The position numbers were made by a program, and so were the translations under genes. Shown piece after piece: positions 5,961 through 13,456 of a stretch of 47,834 bases of DNA. Numbering within the stretch: position 1 is the stretch's first letter; each line of letters starts with the position of its first letter. Under the pieces are notes generated by a model, which saw only the letters and a list, made by a program, of their open reading frames with translations, searched no databases and was not told where the DNA came from. Origin of the DNA: Comamonas jiangduensis (GTDB taxonomy: Bacteria > Pseudomonadota > Gammaproteobacteria > Burkholderiales > Burkholderiaceae_C); contig NZ_CADEPJ010000035.1 of NCBI RefSeq assembly GCF_902829245.1, forward strand, positions 1 through 47,834, given 5' to 3'.

Positions 5961-6850
5961 ATGACAACACAAGCGCGCAAAGGCATCATCCTCGCAGGTG
6001 GCTCTGGCACACGCCTGCACCCGGCCACGCTGGCCATCAGCAAGCAACTGCTGCCCGTGTATGACAAGCCCATGATCTACTACCCGCTCAGCACCCTGAT
6101 GCTGGCCGGGATTCGGGATATCCTGATCATCAGCACCCGCAGGACACGCCGCGCTTTGAGCAATTGCTGGGCGACGGCAGCCAGTGGGGACTGAACCTGC
6201 AATATGCCGTGCAGCCCAGCCCCGATGGCTTGGCGCAGGCATTTTTGATTGGTGAAGCTTTCCTGAGCGGTGCTCCCAGTGCGTTGGTGTTGGGGGACAA
6301 CATTTTTCATGGGCATGACTTTCAAAGTCTTTTGGAAGAGGCCCGCGCGCAACCGGATGGCTCCACGGTATTTGCCTACCACGTGCAAGACCCCGAACGC
6401 TATGGCGTCGCGGAGTTTGATGCCTCGGGCAAAGTGCTGTCGCTGGAGGAAAAGCCTGCAGTGCCCAAGTCCAACTATGCGGTCACCGGCCTGTATTTCT
6501 ACGATAGCCAGGTGGTGGAACTGGCCAAGTCGCTCCAGCCTTCCCCGCGTGGCGAGCTAGAGATCACGGACTTGAACAAGTTGTACCTGGAAAAGGGGCA
6601 GTTGAACGTGCAATTGATGGGGCGTGGCTATGCATGGCTGGACACGGGTACGCATGACAGTTTGCTGGAGGCTGGGCAGTTCATCGCAACGTTAGAGCAG
6701 CGCCAGGGCTTGAAAGTGGCTTGCCCCGAAGAAATCGCTTACCGTGCGGGCTGGATTGATGCTGCGCAGGTCGAGAAACTGGCCCAGCCGCTGCTCAAGA
6801 ATGGCTATGGCCAGTACCTGATGCAGGTGCTCAAAGGTGGCGTGCGATGA
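5961..6850 (+). CDS. rfbA: Glucose-1-phosphate thymidylyltransferase (frameshifted)
   Basis: RfbA makes dTDP-glucose from dTTP and glucose-1-phosphate, the first step toward dTDP-rhamnose. It begins [20 protein letters not shown], with the nucleotidyltransferase signature GGSGTRL. The frame breaks near 6142, where ACCCGC should read ACCCCGC. Restoring one C gives [20 protein letters not shown] and joins the second part, which contains LGDNIFHG and the sugar-binding region around [15 protein letters not shown]. The restored length of about 296 residues is normal. The stop overlaps rfbC (ATGA at 6847). Confidence 0.93.
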
Positions 6851-7605: not shown

Positions 7606-8760
7606 TCATGCGTTTTGCATGATGCCCAGCACGATGGCCGCCACGATCAGCGTGCACACTATCGCAAGGCCAATCTTCACCCAGCTGTACGGCCGCTCGC
7701 CCGCAATCTGGCCGGTATAGCCATTGGCAATGATCTGGTAGTTTTTGCTGCCGTAGGTATAGCCCACGATCCACACAGGCACCAGTACGTGCTTGAAAGT
7801 GCGGCCCGCGTATTCCCGCTGTACGCGCAGGTTGCGGTAGGTGTCGCCGGGCACCTGGCGCGCGCACAGGGCTTCCACTTGGCTGTCCATGTCTTGCTCG
7901 TTGAGCTTGGCCGCCTTGCCCAGATCAACCTGGTAGCGCTCCACCGTCCAGCCGCGCACAAATTCGGGGGTGTAGGGCTTCAGATCTGTGGTGGTCGGGA
8001 AGGGCTCTACCTGTCGCAGCAGTTGGGGGTGTACCCCCACAGTGCCGGGCACGAGTTCATCATCAAAAAAGTGGCGCAGGCTGCCCGATGCAGGTTGCCA
8101 GCGTACATGGCGCACCTGTCGCGTCTGGGTGGTGCCATTCGCATCGCGGTAGGTTTCGGTGGTGTAGTAATAAAACCCTGCGTCGGCCTGCCATACCGCA
8201 CTGACATGGGCGTCAAACGTCCAGTACGGCAGATACACGCCGTGCAGCGTGTCCGTCAGCGCGGCGTGCTTGAGCTTGTTGGGCGCAAACCAGCGGCTGC
8301 CGTACCATTGGCGGATACGGTCGCGGATCTGCCCATCACTCACTTTGAACGGCAGGATGCTCTGCGGCGTGATGGCGTCGCTGCGCTCTTCATGCGCCAC
8401 GATGGCGGGCGAGCCGCAAAAATCGCAGCGCTGGGCCACGCGGCCATCCACAAAGACCGAAATTGCCTGGCAGTTCTGGCACTGCACCTCTTGGCGCTGG
8501 CCGCCCCAGCCACGCCCGCTGGCTGGGTTTTGCAGGGCTGCGTACAGGTCTTGCTCAACGATCTCCTGACCCAATTCCTCCCTCAGCTCGTCGCTCCACG
8601 GCACCAAAGTGCCGCAGTAGGGGCATTGGAGCGATTGCGCCTTGGCATTCCACTCCAGGTTGGCACCACACTCCGGACAGGGGTGCTTGCGCACCATGGA
8701 GGGTTGAGGGGGGCCGCTGGCCGCAGCGTAAGAAGAGGCAGGGGTATCAGTCACTGACAA
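7606..8760 (-). CDS. Double zinc-ribbon, membrane-anchored protein
   Basis: This 384-residue protein has two zinc ribbons near its N-terminus: CPECG...CPYCG (about residues 28-50) and CQNC...CDFCG (about 94-117). A central beta-rich domain begins near ILPFKVSDGQ and contains VYLPYWTFDAHVSA. A single C-terminal membrane segment covers about residues 359-382. Relatives are often labelled primosomal protein N'-like because of the ribbons, but there is no helicase domain here. It lies just downstream of the SPFH gene in the same direction (87 bp apart). That pairing recalls the Bacillus YdjG/YdjI partners of PspA. A membrane-stress role is inference only. Confidence 0.8.
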   Translation of the reverse strand: MSVTDTPASSYAAASGPPQPSMVRKHPCPECGANLEWNAKAQSLQCPYCGTLVPWSDELREELGQEIVEQDLYAALQNPASGRGWGGQRQEVQCQNCQAISVFVDGRVAQRCDFCGSPAIVAHEERSDAITPQSILPFKVSDGQIRDRIRQWYGSRWFAPNKLKHAALTDTLHGVYLPYWTFDAHVSAVWQADAGFYYYTTETYRDANGTTQTRQVRHVRWQPASGSLRHFFDDELVPGTVGVHPQLLRQVEPFPTTTDLKPYTPEFVRGWTVERYQVDLGKAAKLNEQDMDSQVEALCARQVPGDTYRNLRVQREYAGRTFKHVLVPVWIVGYTYGSKNYQIIANGYTGQIAGERPYSWVKIGLAIVCTLIVAAIVLGIMQNA

Positions 8761-8847: not shown

Positions 8848-9973
8848 TTAAGCTCCGCGCAGAAACTCATCCAGCGCGGCCTGCGCAATCCGCCAGTTCG
8901 CGCCGATCTTGCGGCCTTTGAGCTGACCGGTCTCCAGCTCGGCAAGCACGTCGGCCACGTCCACGCCCAGCAGCTGGGCGGTCGGCTCCGGCGTGTAGAC
9001 CTGCAACGCAGGGGCAGCGCCGACCGGAGTGGCCTGAGCATCTTGGGTTGCGGCGGCTGAGAAGGCATCGTTCCCCGGAGGCACGACCAGTCCAGGCTGG
9101 GCTCCCGGTGCGGTGCTCGGTTGCTGCATCTGCCGCATCATCTCCTGGGCCATGCCAAAGCCCATGGCCATGGTGGCGGGCAGGGTGGCTGCCGCCGCGC
9201 CTTCGCCGCCGTGTGCCATGGCCTGGCCCATCTGGTACTTCACATAATCGTTGAGGTTGCCGATGGCGCCATGCTGGAGCGCTTGTCGATGGCCTGCTCC
9301 ACCTCGGGCGGCACGGAGACGTTCTCCAGCACAAAGCTGGTCACCTCGATGCCGTACTTCTCCACCATCGCCGGGTTGATGATCTGCACCAGCGCCTGGC
9401 CCAGGTCGCCATAGCGCGTGGCCACGTCCAGCACCGGCACCTGGGCCTTGGCCAGGGCTTCGGTAAACACGCTGACGATGCGCGAGCGCATGGTGTCGGC
9501 AAACTCGTCGATGCGGAAGTTCTGGTCCGTGCCCGCCACTTCCCTGAGGAACAGCGCAGGCTGCACGATGCGGAAGTCGTAGGTGCCGAAGGCGCGGATG
9601 CGCACCACGCCAAAGTCCTTGTCGCGCATCAGCACGGGGTTGGAGGTGCCCCACTTGTTGCCCGTGAACAGGCGTGTGTTGATGTAGTAGACGTCGCACT
9701 TGAAGGGCGACTGGAAACCGTACTTCCAGCCCAGGATGGTGGACAGCACGGGCACGTTCTCGGTGCTCAGCGTGTGCTTGCCGGGGCCGAACAGGTCGGC
9801 GTACTGGCCGGCGGCCACGAACTGCACCTGCTGCGATTCGCGCACGATCAGCTGGGCGCCATTCTTGATTTCCTTGTCGTCGTCCGGCCAGCGGTAGGAG
9901 AGCGTGTCGCGCGAGTCATCGGTCCATTCGATGACCTCGATCAGTTGGTTCTGATGATGTTGAACAGATTCAT
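8848..9973 (-). CDS. SPFH-domain (virion-core-like) protein with C-terminal HTH tail (frameshifted)
   Basis: The protein starts at ATG 9973 (MNLFNII). After a one-base correction near 9948 it reads NQLIEVIEWTDDSRDTLSYR. The SPFH/YdjI-like domain follows, with YADLFGPGKHTL and FGTYDFRI. A second lost G near 9263 separates it from the C-terminal part NLNDYVKYQMGQAMA. A Met/Gln/Pro-rich linker leads to a last 45-residue module, QLLGVDVADVLAELETG plus KIGANWRIAQAALDEFL. That module matches the excisionase/MerR-type helix-turn-helix pattern. The restored length is about 375 residues. SPFH proteins usually form membrane-associated oligomers; a DNA-binding-like tail on one is unusual. Confidence 0.8.
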
Positions 9974-10331
9974 GCCACGCCTCGCTAGCCGGTCAGAAGA
10001 AAAAGGGTGGAGCCATTGTAGGGCGGGCTTTTGGGCCGTGTGGCACAGAGAAATTCAAAAATATAGCTATTGGTGCTTATTGCATATATGTTTAAGCCAT
10101 AAATAGTGTTGAAGTGACTGCGAGGAAAGCGTAAGGTGCTCCCTTATTGAAAGCGTCGCAGCCTTTGTTGACCATTGAAAGGCGCTGTAACTGCCGATAG
10201 GGTAGCGAGAGGCCTAGAATCACCCCTTTGCGCGCGCGAGCGGGGCCTTTGCTGTGCCCGCTGGTTGTGCGGTCTCTTATAACGATGGGGTTGGCGCTTG
10301 CGTGCCAGCCTTCTACCCTTTTTCAGACACC
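9974..10331. other. Gene-free divergent region between the SPFH gene and glyQ
   Basis: This 358-bp stretch should contain the promoters for both divergent genes. It holds a degenerate dispersed-repeat copy (AAATATAGCTATTGGTGCTT near 10057, AAGCCATAAATAG after it). I found no convincing sigma-70 promoter pair, RNA gene or riboswitch. Confidence 0.5.
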
Positions 10332-11267
10332 ATGCTGACCTTCCAACAAATCATTCTGAAACTGCAGTCCTACTGGGCCGAACACGGCTGCGCACTGCTC
10401 CAGCCCTATGACATGGAAGTCGGCGCCGGCACGTCGCACACCGCCACCTTCCTGCGCGCCATCGGCCCCGAGCCCTGGAAGGCCGCCTACGTGCAGCCCA
10501 GCCGCCGCCCCAAGGACGGCCGCTACGGCGAAACCCCCACCCGCCTGCAGCACTACTACCAGTTCCAGGTGGTCCTCAAGCCCGCGCCCGACAACATCCT
10601 GGAGCTGTACCTGGCTCGCTGGAAGCGCTGGGCTTTGATCTGAAGAAAACGACATCCGCTTTGTGGAAGACGACTGGGAGAACCCCACGTTGGGCGCTTG
10701 GGGCCTGGGCTGGGAAGTTTGGCTCAACGGCATGGAAGTGACCCAGTTCACCTACTTCCAGCAGGTCGCCGGCATCGACTGCAAGCCTGCCACAGGCGAG
10801 ATCACCTATGGTCTGGAGCGCTTGGCCATGTACCTGCAGGGCAAGGAATCGGTGTACGACCTGGTCTATACCGACGGCCTGACCTATGGCGACGTGTTCC
10901 ACCAGAACGAGGTGGAGCAGTCCACCTACAACTTCGAGCATTCGAATGCCGAGTTCCTGTTCAGCGCCTTTGCGGCCCACGAAGACACCGCCAACCAGCT
11001 GATTGACGCGCAGTTGGCGCTGCCTGCCTATGAGCAAGTGCTCAAGGCCGCCCACACCTTCAACCTGCTGGATGCGCGCGGTGCCATCTCGGTGACCGAG
11101 CGTGCCGCTTATATTGGCCGCATCCGCAACCTGGCCCGTGCCGTGGGCAAGAGCTATCTGGACAGCCGCGCGCGCCTGGCTTCCCCATGGCGCCCAAGGC
11201 ACATGCCGATGAAGTGCTGGCCGAGCTGGCCAAAGCCGCAGAGCAACAAGCCAAGAAGGCTGCGTAA
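10332..11267 (+). CDS. glyQ: Glycyl-tRNA synthetase alpha subunit (three frameshifts)
   Basis: GlyQ is the catalytic subunit of the alpha2beta2 glycyl-tRNA synthetase. It begins [20 protein letters not shown], followed by [12 protein letters not shown] and the class II motif region [13 protein letters not shown]. Three one-base losses interrupt it: a G near 10617 (should give [12 protein letters not shown]), an A near 10650 ([15 protein letters not shown]), and a G near 11180 ([15 protein letters not shown]). The restored protein of about 311 residues ends EQQAKKAA with TAA 11265-11267. The gene is essential, so these breaks are most likely sequencing errors. glyS follows after a repeat. Confidence 0.95.
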
Positions 11268-11292
11268 GCGGGCCCTGTCTGAATACTTAATC

Positions 11293-11338
11293 AAATTTGC
11301 CTCTGGCGCTTATCTGGTAAGCGCTAGCAGCTATCAAA
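11293..11338 (+). repeat. GCGCTT/AAGCGC dispersed repeat, well-preserved copy B
   Basis: This copy lies in the glyQ-glyS gap. TGGCGCTTATC and AAGCGCTAGCAGCTATCAAA match copy A at 5903-5948 with few differences, and the paired half-sites GCGCTT/AAGCGC are kept. Confidence 0.85.
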
Positions 11339-11344
11339 AATACC

Positions 11345-13456
11345 ATGACCGCACAGAATCTTCTTGTTGAACTGTTTGTTGAAGAATTGCCTCCCAAGGC
11401 CTTGCAAAAGCTGGGCGAGGCCTTCGCCGGCGGGGTGTTGGAGCAACTGAAAGCGCAGGGTCTGCGGGCCTCCAGCGAGTCGCGCTTGACGGCTTACGCC
11501 TCGCCCCGCCGTTTGGATGCGCACATCACCGAAGTACTGCCCCAGGCCGAAGACAAAGCAGTGTCGCAAAAGCTCATGCCCGTGTCGGTGGGACTGGACG
11601 CCGAAGGCAAAGCCACGCCCGCGCTGCTCAAGAAGCTGGCGGCACTGGGCGCTGACGCGTCCGCCGTCGCTGGCCTGCTGCGCGAAGGTGAAGGCAAGGC
11701 CGAAGCCCTGTTCTACGCTTCCACCGTCAAGGGTGTGGTGCTGGCCGATGGCGTGCAAAAAGCACTGGACGAAGCGATCGCCAAGCTGCCCATCCCCAAG
11801 GTCATGCGCTACCAGTTGCAAGACGGCTGGACCAGCGTGAACTTTGTGCGCCCGCCCACGGCTTGGTCGTGCTGCACGGCACGCAAGTGCTGGTCGGTGT
11901 GAAGACGCTGGGCTTGACCGCAGGCAACGCCACGCACGGTCACCGCTTTGAAGCCAAGGTCGACCCCGTCGTGGTCCACAACGCGGACAGCTACGCGGAG
12001 CAGCTGCGCGAAGAAGGCGCCGTGATCGCCAGCTTTACCGAGCGCCGTGCCGATATTGCGCGCCAGCTGCAAGCTGCTGCCGAGCATGTGGGTGGCGGTG
12101 TGCGCCCGATTGACGATGCCGCGTTGCTGGACGAAGTGACCGCGCTGGTCGAGCGCCCCAACGTGCTGGTCTGTGAATTTGAAAAAGAATTCCTGGCCGT
12201 GCCCCAGGAATGCCTGATTCTGACCATGAAGGCCAACCAGAAGTACTTCCCGCTGCTGGATGCCCAAGGCAAGCTGACCCACCAGTTCCTTATCGTCAGC
12301 AACATCGTCCGCGGATGCCTCCGCCGTGATCGAAGGCAACGAGCGCGTGGTGCGCCCCCGCCTGGCCGACGCCAAGTTCTTCTTTGACCAGGACCGCAAG
12401 AAAACCCTGGAAAGCCGCGTCGAAGGCTTAGGCAAGGTCGTCTACCACAACAAGCTGGGCACCCAGGGCGAACGCGTGGACCGCGTACGTGCCATTGCCA
12501 AGGCGATTGCCCAACAATTGGGTGACGCGCAACTGGTGGCACAGGCTGATCTGGCCGCCAAGCTGGCCAAGACCGACCTGGTGACCGACATGGTGGGCGA
12601 ATTCCCCGAGCTGCAAGGCATCATGGGCCGCTACTACGCGCTGAATGACGGTCTGGATGAAGCTGTTGCAGACGCTATTGAAGACCACTACAAGCCCCGC
12701 TTTGCCGGTGACGAACTGCCCCGTGGCGATGCAGGCGTGGTGGTGGCGCTGGCTGACAAGCTTGAAACCTTGGTCGGCATGTTCGGCATTGGCAACCTGC
12801 CCACGGGCGACCGCGACCCCTTCGCCCTACGCCGCCATGCGCTGGGCGTGATCCGCATGCTGGTGGAAAAGAACCTGCCGCTGGAACTGCACGCCCTGCT
12901 CCAAAGCGCCGTGCCCGCCTTTGGCGACAAGATCACAGACGCCACTGCCCAGCTGGAAGACTTCTTCTTTGACCGCCTGTCCGTCAGCCTGCGCGAGCAA
13001 GGCTATACCGCCCAGGAAGTGGAAGCCGTGCTGGCCCTGCGCCCACAGCGCCTGTCGGATGTGCAAAAGCGCCTGGAAGCTGTGCGTGCTTTTGCGGCAC
13101 TGCCTGAAGCACAGGCACTGGCCGCCGCCAACAAGCGCGTGAGCAATATCCTGAAAAAGGCCGAAGACGAAGTTCAAGCCCAAGTCAACGAAGCGCTGCT
13201 GGTGGAGCAGGCAGAAAAAGACCTGTTTGCAGCGCTGCAAACCGTGGCACCCAAGGCACAGCAGCAGTTTGAATCAAGCGACTACACTGCCAGCCTGCAG
13301 ACCCTGGCCGCCTTGCGTGCCCCAGTGGATGCGTTCTTTGAGCATGTGATGGTGAATGCGGAGGATGCCGCTTTAAAGGCCAATCGCTTGGGCTTGCTGG
13401 CTACGCTGCATGCAGCGATGAATCGGGTGGCGGATTTGGCGAAGTTGGCGGTTTGA
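11345..13456 (+). CDS. glyS: Glycyl-tRNA synthetase beta subunit (two frameshifts)
   Basis: GlyS is the beta subunit needed for tRNA-Gly binding. It starts [20 protein letters not shown], the standard N-terminus. A G is missing near 11854 (restored: [14 protein letters not shown]). A G appears extra near 12307 (restored: [19 protein letters not shown]), so the original frame is regained. The core includes [19 protein letters not shown] and [13 protein letters not shown]. The C-terminal DALR-like anticodon-binding region runs to a stop at 13454-13456. The restored length of about 703 residues is normal. Base composition falls abruptly just after the stop, marking the edge of the O-antigen island. 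Confidence 0.95.

Follow-up and report, generated by a model that had tools for sequence, protein, structure and literature searches.

The window, by which we mean the whole stretch of DNA analyzed, consists of 47,834 nucleotides from contig NZ_CADEPJ010000035.1 of Comamonas jiangduensis. It carries a gene whose product joins an SPFH domain of the Band_7_1 family to a C-terminal winged helix-turn-helix (HTH) and, next to it, a gene for a protein with two zinc ribbons. The features are as follows.

9954..9973, minus strand: start region (ATG at 9973-9971 and the first residues), out of the SPFH frame in this assembly; read from the sequence
9270..9953, minus strand: SPFH/Band_7_1 domain, equivalent to L003 residues 8-235 (PF13421, tblastn)
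8848..9270, minus strand: second frame, with the conserved post-SPFH segment, an Ala/Pro/Gly-rich linker, the HTH tail, and the stop codon (tblastn, L003 residues 236-376)
9127..9270, minus strand: conserved Met-rich segment of about 48 residues after the SPFH domain (median dN/dS)
8854..9000, minus strand: C-terminal winged HTH of the HTH_17, excisionase/MerR type (PF12728, AlphaFold2, fold matches)
8929..8958, minus strand: acidic "recognition" helix, tail residues 25-34, with an invariant Asp at 8950-8952 (model, charge statistics)
8884..8919, minus strand: basic wing hairpin KGRKIGANWRIA (strands E40-42 and E45-49 of the model, wing charge)
7606..8760, minus strand: neighbor gene for a YdjG-like protein with two zinc ribbons, a beta-rich domain, and a C-terminal hydrophobic helix, the proposed partner (Cys pairs, model, co-occurrence)

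The SPFH part scored 255.4 bits against the Pfam model PF13421 (Band_7_1; cut-off, 24), a domain that it has in common with YdjI; we take YdjI-type Band_7_1 proteins to be COG4260. When the protein of L003, an intact relative, was compared with the window by tblastn, its residues 8 to 235 aligned to 9953-9270 with 98.7% identity, its residues 236 to 376 aligned to 9270-8854 in a different frame, and its first seven residues (MNLFNII) were unaligned in the SPFH frame. The copy in the window is therefore not one open frame but is broken twice, once within its first residues and once close to 9270. Relatives have unbroken copies. The host genome is a draft, 75% complete in 322 contigs, and the genes at 5961-6850, 10254-11370, and 11345-13456 of the window, which from their translations are presumably rfbA-, glyQ-, and glyS-like, are each split over at least two frames. 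Because other genes of the draft genome are also split, the breaks in the SPFH gene are likely to be assembly (indel) errors; the split neighbors point to errors in the draft genome and not to decay confined to the SPFH gene.

The tail is unaffected by these breaks. It lies within a single intact frame with no further break (L003 residues 236 to 376), which rules out a frameshift artifact. Among 150 Comamonas pairs (not independent observations), the median dN/dS was 0.114 for the HTH tail and 0.133 for the SPFH domain. The tail is thus under purifying selection, with constraint like that on the SPFH domain. The first 48 residues after the SPFH domain had a median dN/dS of 0.077 in the same mutually dependent pairs, which is strong constraint. 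Everything between the SPFH domain and the HTH had been described as a Met/Gln/Pro-rich linker in an earlier, sequence-only reading of this DNA; given these 48 constrained residues, not all of the stretch is free linker.

The same reading had placed a MerR/excisionase-type HTH in the last 45 residues, and it was right in this: the residues that it quoted are present, on the minus strand, and the tail matched PF12728 (HTH_17; cut-off, 27) with 30.1 bits in hmmscan, with 31.3 bits when the last 84 residues were scored, and with 32.0 bits at 8854..9000 in a genome search. The tails of four relatives scored 32.2 to 38.8 bits against the same cut-off. We also built a profile from only 51 ordinary HTH_17 domains, all strong scorers (21 from one 30-locus set, after removal of 9 SPFH tails, plus 30 more). 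This profile gave the window tail 35.7 bits, and the best of 1,330 scored composition shuffles of the tail (2,000 were made) reached 7.6 bits. A chance match is ruled out by the shuffle scores and by conservation among relatives. Against TIGR01764 (excisionase family DNA-binding) the tail scored 20.7 to 21.8 bits, below the curated cut-off of 28.8; the MamR model gave it 25.4 bits (cut-off, 100), so that it is not a member; and for a role in defense, PADLOC gave a weak HTH match alone (mad1, E 0.0015).

AlphaFold2, run with the window tail and 33 homologs, predicted a winged helix with helices at residues 14 to 21, 25 to 34, and 50 to 59 and strands at 40 to 42 and 45 to 49, in the order helix-helix-strand-strand-helix (mean pLDDT, 83.8; block means of 84 to 92 over residues 11 to 60). 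The nearest folds by VIA-align were BldC (Z 8.6 and 8.4, rmsd 2.1 and 1.2), followed by Pukovnik Xis (Z 8.0) and RdfS (Z 7.6). Foldseek gave no match to the tail at an E of ≤0.001, as expected for so short a domain; its list was headed by BldC, TraN, RdfS, and Xis. The fold matches also included 3ucs, a CbpM complex. As judged from sequence and model, then, the YdjI-like SPFH protein does end in a winged HTH of the MerR/excisionase type; neither outcome that the earlier reading had named as refuting it, a structure prediction lacking a winged helix or another frameshift producing the tail, was observed. It shares the winged-helix fold with BldC, Pukovnik Xis, and RdfS, but those are of the small, free type, whereas the tail is the C-terminal part of an SPFH protein of 360 to 380 residues.

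Such kinship would suit a scaffold that binds DNA through its HTH, coupling the state of the envelope to transcription or to chromosome position. The Pfam HTH_17 score is above the cut-off, the nearest folds are those of DNA binders (BldC-DNA, Xis, RdfS, and TraN), and the closest PDB entry by sequence is 4j2n, Pukovnik Xis, with an E of 8e-6.

The SPFH part was matched in 64 of 100 genomes searched, the host's own included. Among the other genomes of the genus there was a match in 50 of 52, and the tail was seen in 49 of these 50; the fiftieth (L011) ends at a contig end. The best 80 of 574 confirmed relatives came from Comamonadaceae, Lautropia, Lysobacteraceae, Rhodanobacteraceae, Acidobacteriota, and Verrucomicrobiota, the last two assignments resting mostly on the titles of metagenome-assembled genomes (MAGs). 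A complete HTH tail was present in 79 of these 80, and the remaining one, L095, ends at a contig end; since the 80 were chosen by similarity to tailed queries, this proportion is biased, and the counts over an order and a class that follow are less so. In 300 genomes of the host's order, a profile of the tail found 17 places at 89.7 to 109.3 bits and then nothing above 35.6 bits. L122, a Verrucomicrobia MAG, has the genome G500; among 113 genomes of the class to which G500 belongs, the tail profile found 15 at 83 to 104 bits, and the next score was 32.7. By these sequence matches, the HTH-tailed SPFH protein occurs in at least three phyla, Pseudomonadota, Acidobacteriota, and Verrucomicrobiota. 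The fusion thus reaches beyond Burkholderiales, the order across which a survey had been proposed.

Sixteen of the 17 places in the host's order are tails of SPFH genes. The seventeenth, in G199, is a duplicate of linker plus tail that lacks the SPFH part and lies 5 kb from the SPFH gene of that genome. It covers query residues 286 to 375 only; the frame upstream has no SPFH match, and a second zinc-ribbon gene follows. We read this copy as a truncated tandem duplicate. It is found at L236 (G199:C1:686500-698000), with the tail at 8353-8529, and G199 groups with Lautropia. At the loci examined, a model of the tail found no match at an E of 0.01 in open reading frames of at least 50 residues outside the SPFH gene. 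For those loci, we reject the idea that the tail is a docking tag common to other proteins of the locus; the G199 copy is the one apparent second tail.

We compared the charges of 80 tails, the 79 complete ones among the best 80 of 574 relatives plus that of the window, with those of the 51 ordinary HTH_17 domains. Since the tails have a common ancestry, these charge statistics are not those of independent samples. The nine-residue recognition helix contained Lys or Arg in 0 of 80 tails versus 47 of 51 ordinary domains. Helix positions 3 and 4 were an invariant Asp-Val in all 80 tails; at position 3 the ordinary domains had Thr in 33 of 51 and Asp or Glu in none. The charge of this helix ranged from −1 to −4 in the tails (mean, −2.8; n = 80) versus a mean of +0.84 in the ordinary domains, 0 of 51 of which were at −2 or lower. 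Over the whole domain, the mean charge was −1.3 in the tails versus +4.2 in the ordinary domains. An acidic recognition helix also separates the tail from BldC, Pukovnik Xis, and RdfS. The wing is basic in both groups, with a mean charge of +3.8 in the tails (n = 80) versus +3.0 in the ordinary domains, and it has an invariant Arg in 34 aligned tail rows. A basic wing with an invariant Arg is a further point in favor of DNA binding, and the wing might yet make contact with DNA, RNA, or anionic lipid. DNA reading is opposed by the inverted helix, with Asp replacing Thr or Ser, and by the negative charge of the domain as a whole.

The HTH is one of several tails found on this scaffold. Among 399 genomes of the host's order, 107 had an SPFH match to this Band_7_1 family; seven of these (G253, G267, G297, G341, G430, G444, and G455) were excluded because the match was just a fragment or the tail matched weakly, and 100 genomes remained. 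The tail was SHOCT in 57, GYF_2 in 21, HTH in 20, and a zinc ribbon in 1 (G225), and it was unclassed in 1 (G185). The view that YdjI-like proteins tend to end in zinc ribbons or disordered tails was therefore incomplete. SHOCT- and GYF_2-tailed proteins combine the same SPFH domain with a short module that occupies the C-terminal place of the HTH, but both the module and the clade differ from those of the HTH type. We built a tree from the SPFH domain, without the tails, of 49 hand-picked rows; three of them (L121, L131, and L135) gave no match to the start motif and were represented by residues 1 to 225 of the open frame. In this tree, the HTH, GYF_2, and SHOCT types each fell on one side of a branch, with support of 95/88, 99/99, and 100/100, respectively, and HTH and GYF_2 stood together against SHOCT with support of 100/100.

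According to the available text of PMC3581485, SHOCT is found most often together with PF13421 and was proposed as a module for oligomerization, nucleic acid binding, or localization; first experiments described there gave oligomerization no support. In several GYF_2-tailed SPFH proteins (L055, L058, L167-L170, and L175), the GYF_2 domain is flanked by proline-rich stretches, PPPIPG and PPPVPP among them, that might serve as its own ligand. The SHOCT-type SPFH gene of L056 (3930-9103) has a set of neighbors unlike that of the HTH type; these look to us like DUF350, zinc-ribbon/DUF4178, and SpeD proteins.

The gene downstream of the SPFH gene encodes a protein with eight Cys residues (C28, C31, C46, C49, C94, C97, C112, and C115) that are invariant in 34 rows and make up two zinc ribbons. 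Its predicted model has a C-terminal hydrophobic helix at residues 360 to 383, a putative membrane segment. In the high-confidence part of the model there are three strands of 28 to 33 residues (E173-205, E211-238, and E307-336). A YdjG-like protein would be expected to have a YpeB-related/NTF2-like domain between its ribbons and its membrane segment; the model is beta-rich, Foldseek found no PDB match to this protein at an E of ≤0.001, and the best VIA row was 4exr (Z 4.8, rmsd 3.1, 62 aligned), a weak match. The missing PDB match is no demonstration of a new fold.

At 63 of the 80 best named loci, this zinc-ribbon gene follows the SPFH gene at a distance of no more than 1.7 kb. Two of the other 17 (L069 and L095) end at contig ends, and in 14 of the 15 remaining genomes the gene is elsewhere; the genome search found no match in G068 (the genome of L116, HTH type, 99% complete). 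We scored the gene as present when it reached at least 100 bits with a profile whose rows were of the HTH type (13) and the GYF_2 type (2), the SHOCT type being unrepresented. By this count, the zinc-ribbon gene was present in 19 of 20 HTH-type genomes of the host's order, in 21 of 21 of the GYF_2 type, and in 0 of 57 of the SHOCT type; it was present in the zinc-ribbon-tailed G225, absent from the unclassed G185, and absent from all 299 other genomes of the order. Eleven SHOCT-type genomes gave weak matches of 19 to 36 bits, most of them to the first zinc ribbon alone. The pattern was repeated in the class of G500, where 15 of 15 HTH-tailed genomes had the gene (448 to 603 bits) versus 0 of the 98 others (≤24.6 bits; the weak matches were G515, G520, and G526, at 19.7 to 24.6 bits). 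G520, G526, G547, and G585 have another SPFH protein and lack the zinc-ribbon protein. Some 54 kb separate the two genes in G500, and G530 and G612 have them on separate contigs. Because the genome searches scored the best candidates only (up to 4 per genome for SPFH and partner, 21 for the tail), absence is less sure than presence in all these counts.

Thus, the type of tail predicts the presence of the zinc-ribbon gene, and the association is strong. However, the SHOCT, GYF_2, and HTH types are separate clades, so the counts are not independent events and the correlation could follow clade history instead of docking.

DNA binding by the tail is disfavored by these sequence comparisons for two reasons: the recognition helix is uniformly acidic, with Asp in the usual place of Thr, and the HTH clade has its zinc-ribbon/membrane partner in common with the GYF_2 clade. 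That related SPFH proteins have GYF_2 or SHOCT in the same slot also argues against DNA reading, which we consider unlikely. Earlier, the HTH had been proposed to bind either nucleic acid or a peptide; the half of that proposal concerning a peptide or protein partner is the one now favored.

The system closest to the pair in the window is that of YdjI. In the available text of PMC8581546, localization of YdjI requires the membrane proteins YdjG and YdjH, and YdjH, not YdjG, was reported to contact YdjI in a two-hybrid assay of the B. subtilis proteins. YdjG has two zinc ribbons and a transmembrane segment, as described in the part of PMC11237479 available, so that YdjI with YdjG and the pair in the window have the same architecture, in which an SPFH protein is accompanied by one that has two zinc ribbons and a membrane segment (putative in the window). 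There are differences. The B. subtilis protein (called YdjL in that part of PMC11237479) ends in a zinc ribbon, whereas the window protein ends in an HTH. In addition, PspA (PF04012), with which a YdjI-type protein would be expected to work, was detected in no more than 5 of the 19 genomes searched in the genus, and the host's own incomplete genome gave no match. As a general rule, a PspA partnership is a weak candidate, and because PspA is in so few of these genomes, the SPFH/zinc-ribbon pair of the window seems to work without it.

A precedent for a winged helix that docks a protein is CbpM of E. coli. As given in the available text of PMC4063869, CbpM has a MerR fold without the residues that contact DNA, and its ligand is the basic J-domain of CbpA; the contact is a hydrophobic patch ringed by acidic residues including Glu22, Glu26 also bonds CbpA, and helix 4, a dimerizing coiled coil, supplies almost half of the residues that contact the J-domain. 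We found that Glu22 and Glu26 are both in the helix EEELNEIVG, which has a charge of −4. Like the tail, CbpM thus has a winged-helix fold with an acidic helix replacing the one that reads DNA, but its coiled-coil helix 4 is absent from the tail, the identity is 14%, and no J-domain partner is known for the tail.

On balance, we favor a YdjI-type scaffold whose HTH tail docks a protein by its acidic helix, most likely the zinc-ribbon protein. By analogy with its family, the SPFH scaffold would oligomerize at the cytoplasmic face of the membrane, and the flexible Ala/Pro linker would display many copies of a winged HTH that had given up DNA binding. The acidic former recognition helix would dock a basic surface of a protein, and the best candidate is the cytoplasmic part (zinc ribbons plus beta domain) of the protein encoded next door. 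The zinc-ribbon protein would then tether the SPFH assembly to the membrane, as YdjG and YdjH do for YdjI. The membrane topology and the docking surfaces in this scheme are ones that we infer. Points against it are that the B. subtilis two-hybrid contact of YdjI is with YdjH and not YdjG, that CbpM makes so many of its contacts through a helix absent from the tail, and that G068 gave no match to the zinc-ribbon gene.

The charges would also permit the tails to bind one another. The acidic helix (−2.8) and the basic wing (+3.8) are opposite charges in one domain, and the helix of one tail might hold the wing of the next, making a belt of neighboring SPFH subunits without DNA. SPFH proteins oligomerize, which fits such a belt, and assembly on DNA (cooperative or oligomeric) is described for BldC and RdfS in the published text available to us. 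Self-assembly leaves the co-occurrence with the zinc-ribbon gene unexplained, however, and we regard it as improbable.

Alternatively, the tail may dock some other partner, such as an unlinked basic protein or, as in CbpM, one with a J-domain, or the wing may contact anionic lipids. CbpM (PMC4063869, in its available text) is a precedent for this as well. HTH-type G068 lacks the zinc-ribbon gene, and genomes of the GYF_2 type keep the zinc-ribbon protein without an HTH. Because the HTH and GYF_2 types differ in the tail and have the partner in common, the tail could be a docking module that exists in two versions or a plug for a further ligand; in the latter case the SPFH part may be what holds the partner, leaving the tail to bind something else. 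Against another partner stands the exact co-occurrence in the Verrucomicrobiota class, even where the genes are unlinked, and we give this alternative little weight. Docking of the zinc-ribbon protein is the reading that we retain.

The YdjI-type scaffold is known; what is new is the charge-inverted, excisionase-fold tail on it. Among the papers listed in searches of literature available without subscription, none pairs SPFH with an HTH_17/excisionase tail. More broadly, a clade of excisionase-fold HTHs may have passed from DNA reader to protein adaptor by inversion of the charge of the recognition helix and become, in at least three phyla, an exchangeable plug on Band_7_1 scaffolds that chooses a membrane partner, as SHOCT, GYF_2, and zinc ribbons would; we see the case for and against this as evenly balanced. 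For the role of short C-terminal modules on these scaffolds, the HTH, GYF_2, and SHOCT branches are a natural experiment: the HTH and GYF_2 branches, which are related, differ in module but share the partner gene, and in the SHOCT branch there is a third module and the partner is absent. Identifying the partner of the tail would show what interchangeable tails are for. In the meantime, an HTH_17 annotation on a Band_7_1 protein should not be taken to mean a transcription factor.

Two database records of relatives probably carry wrong labels. L080, titled Pantoea sp. 18069, encodes a Comamonas-type protein that is 78% identical to the query, and L120, titled as a Bifidobacterium breve MAG, adjoins an Acidobacteria row in the tree.
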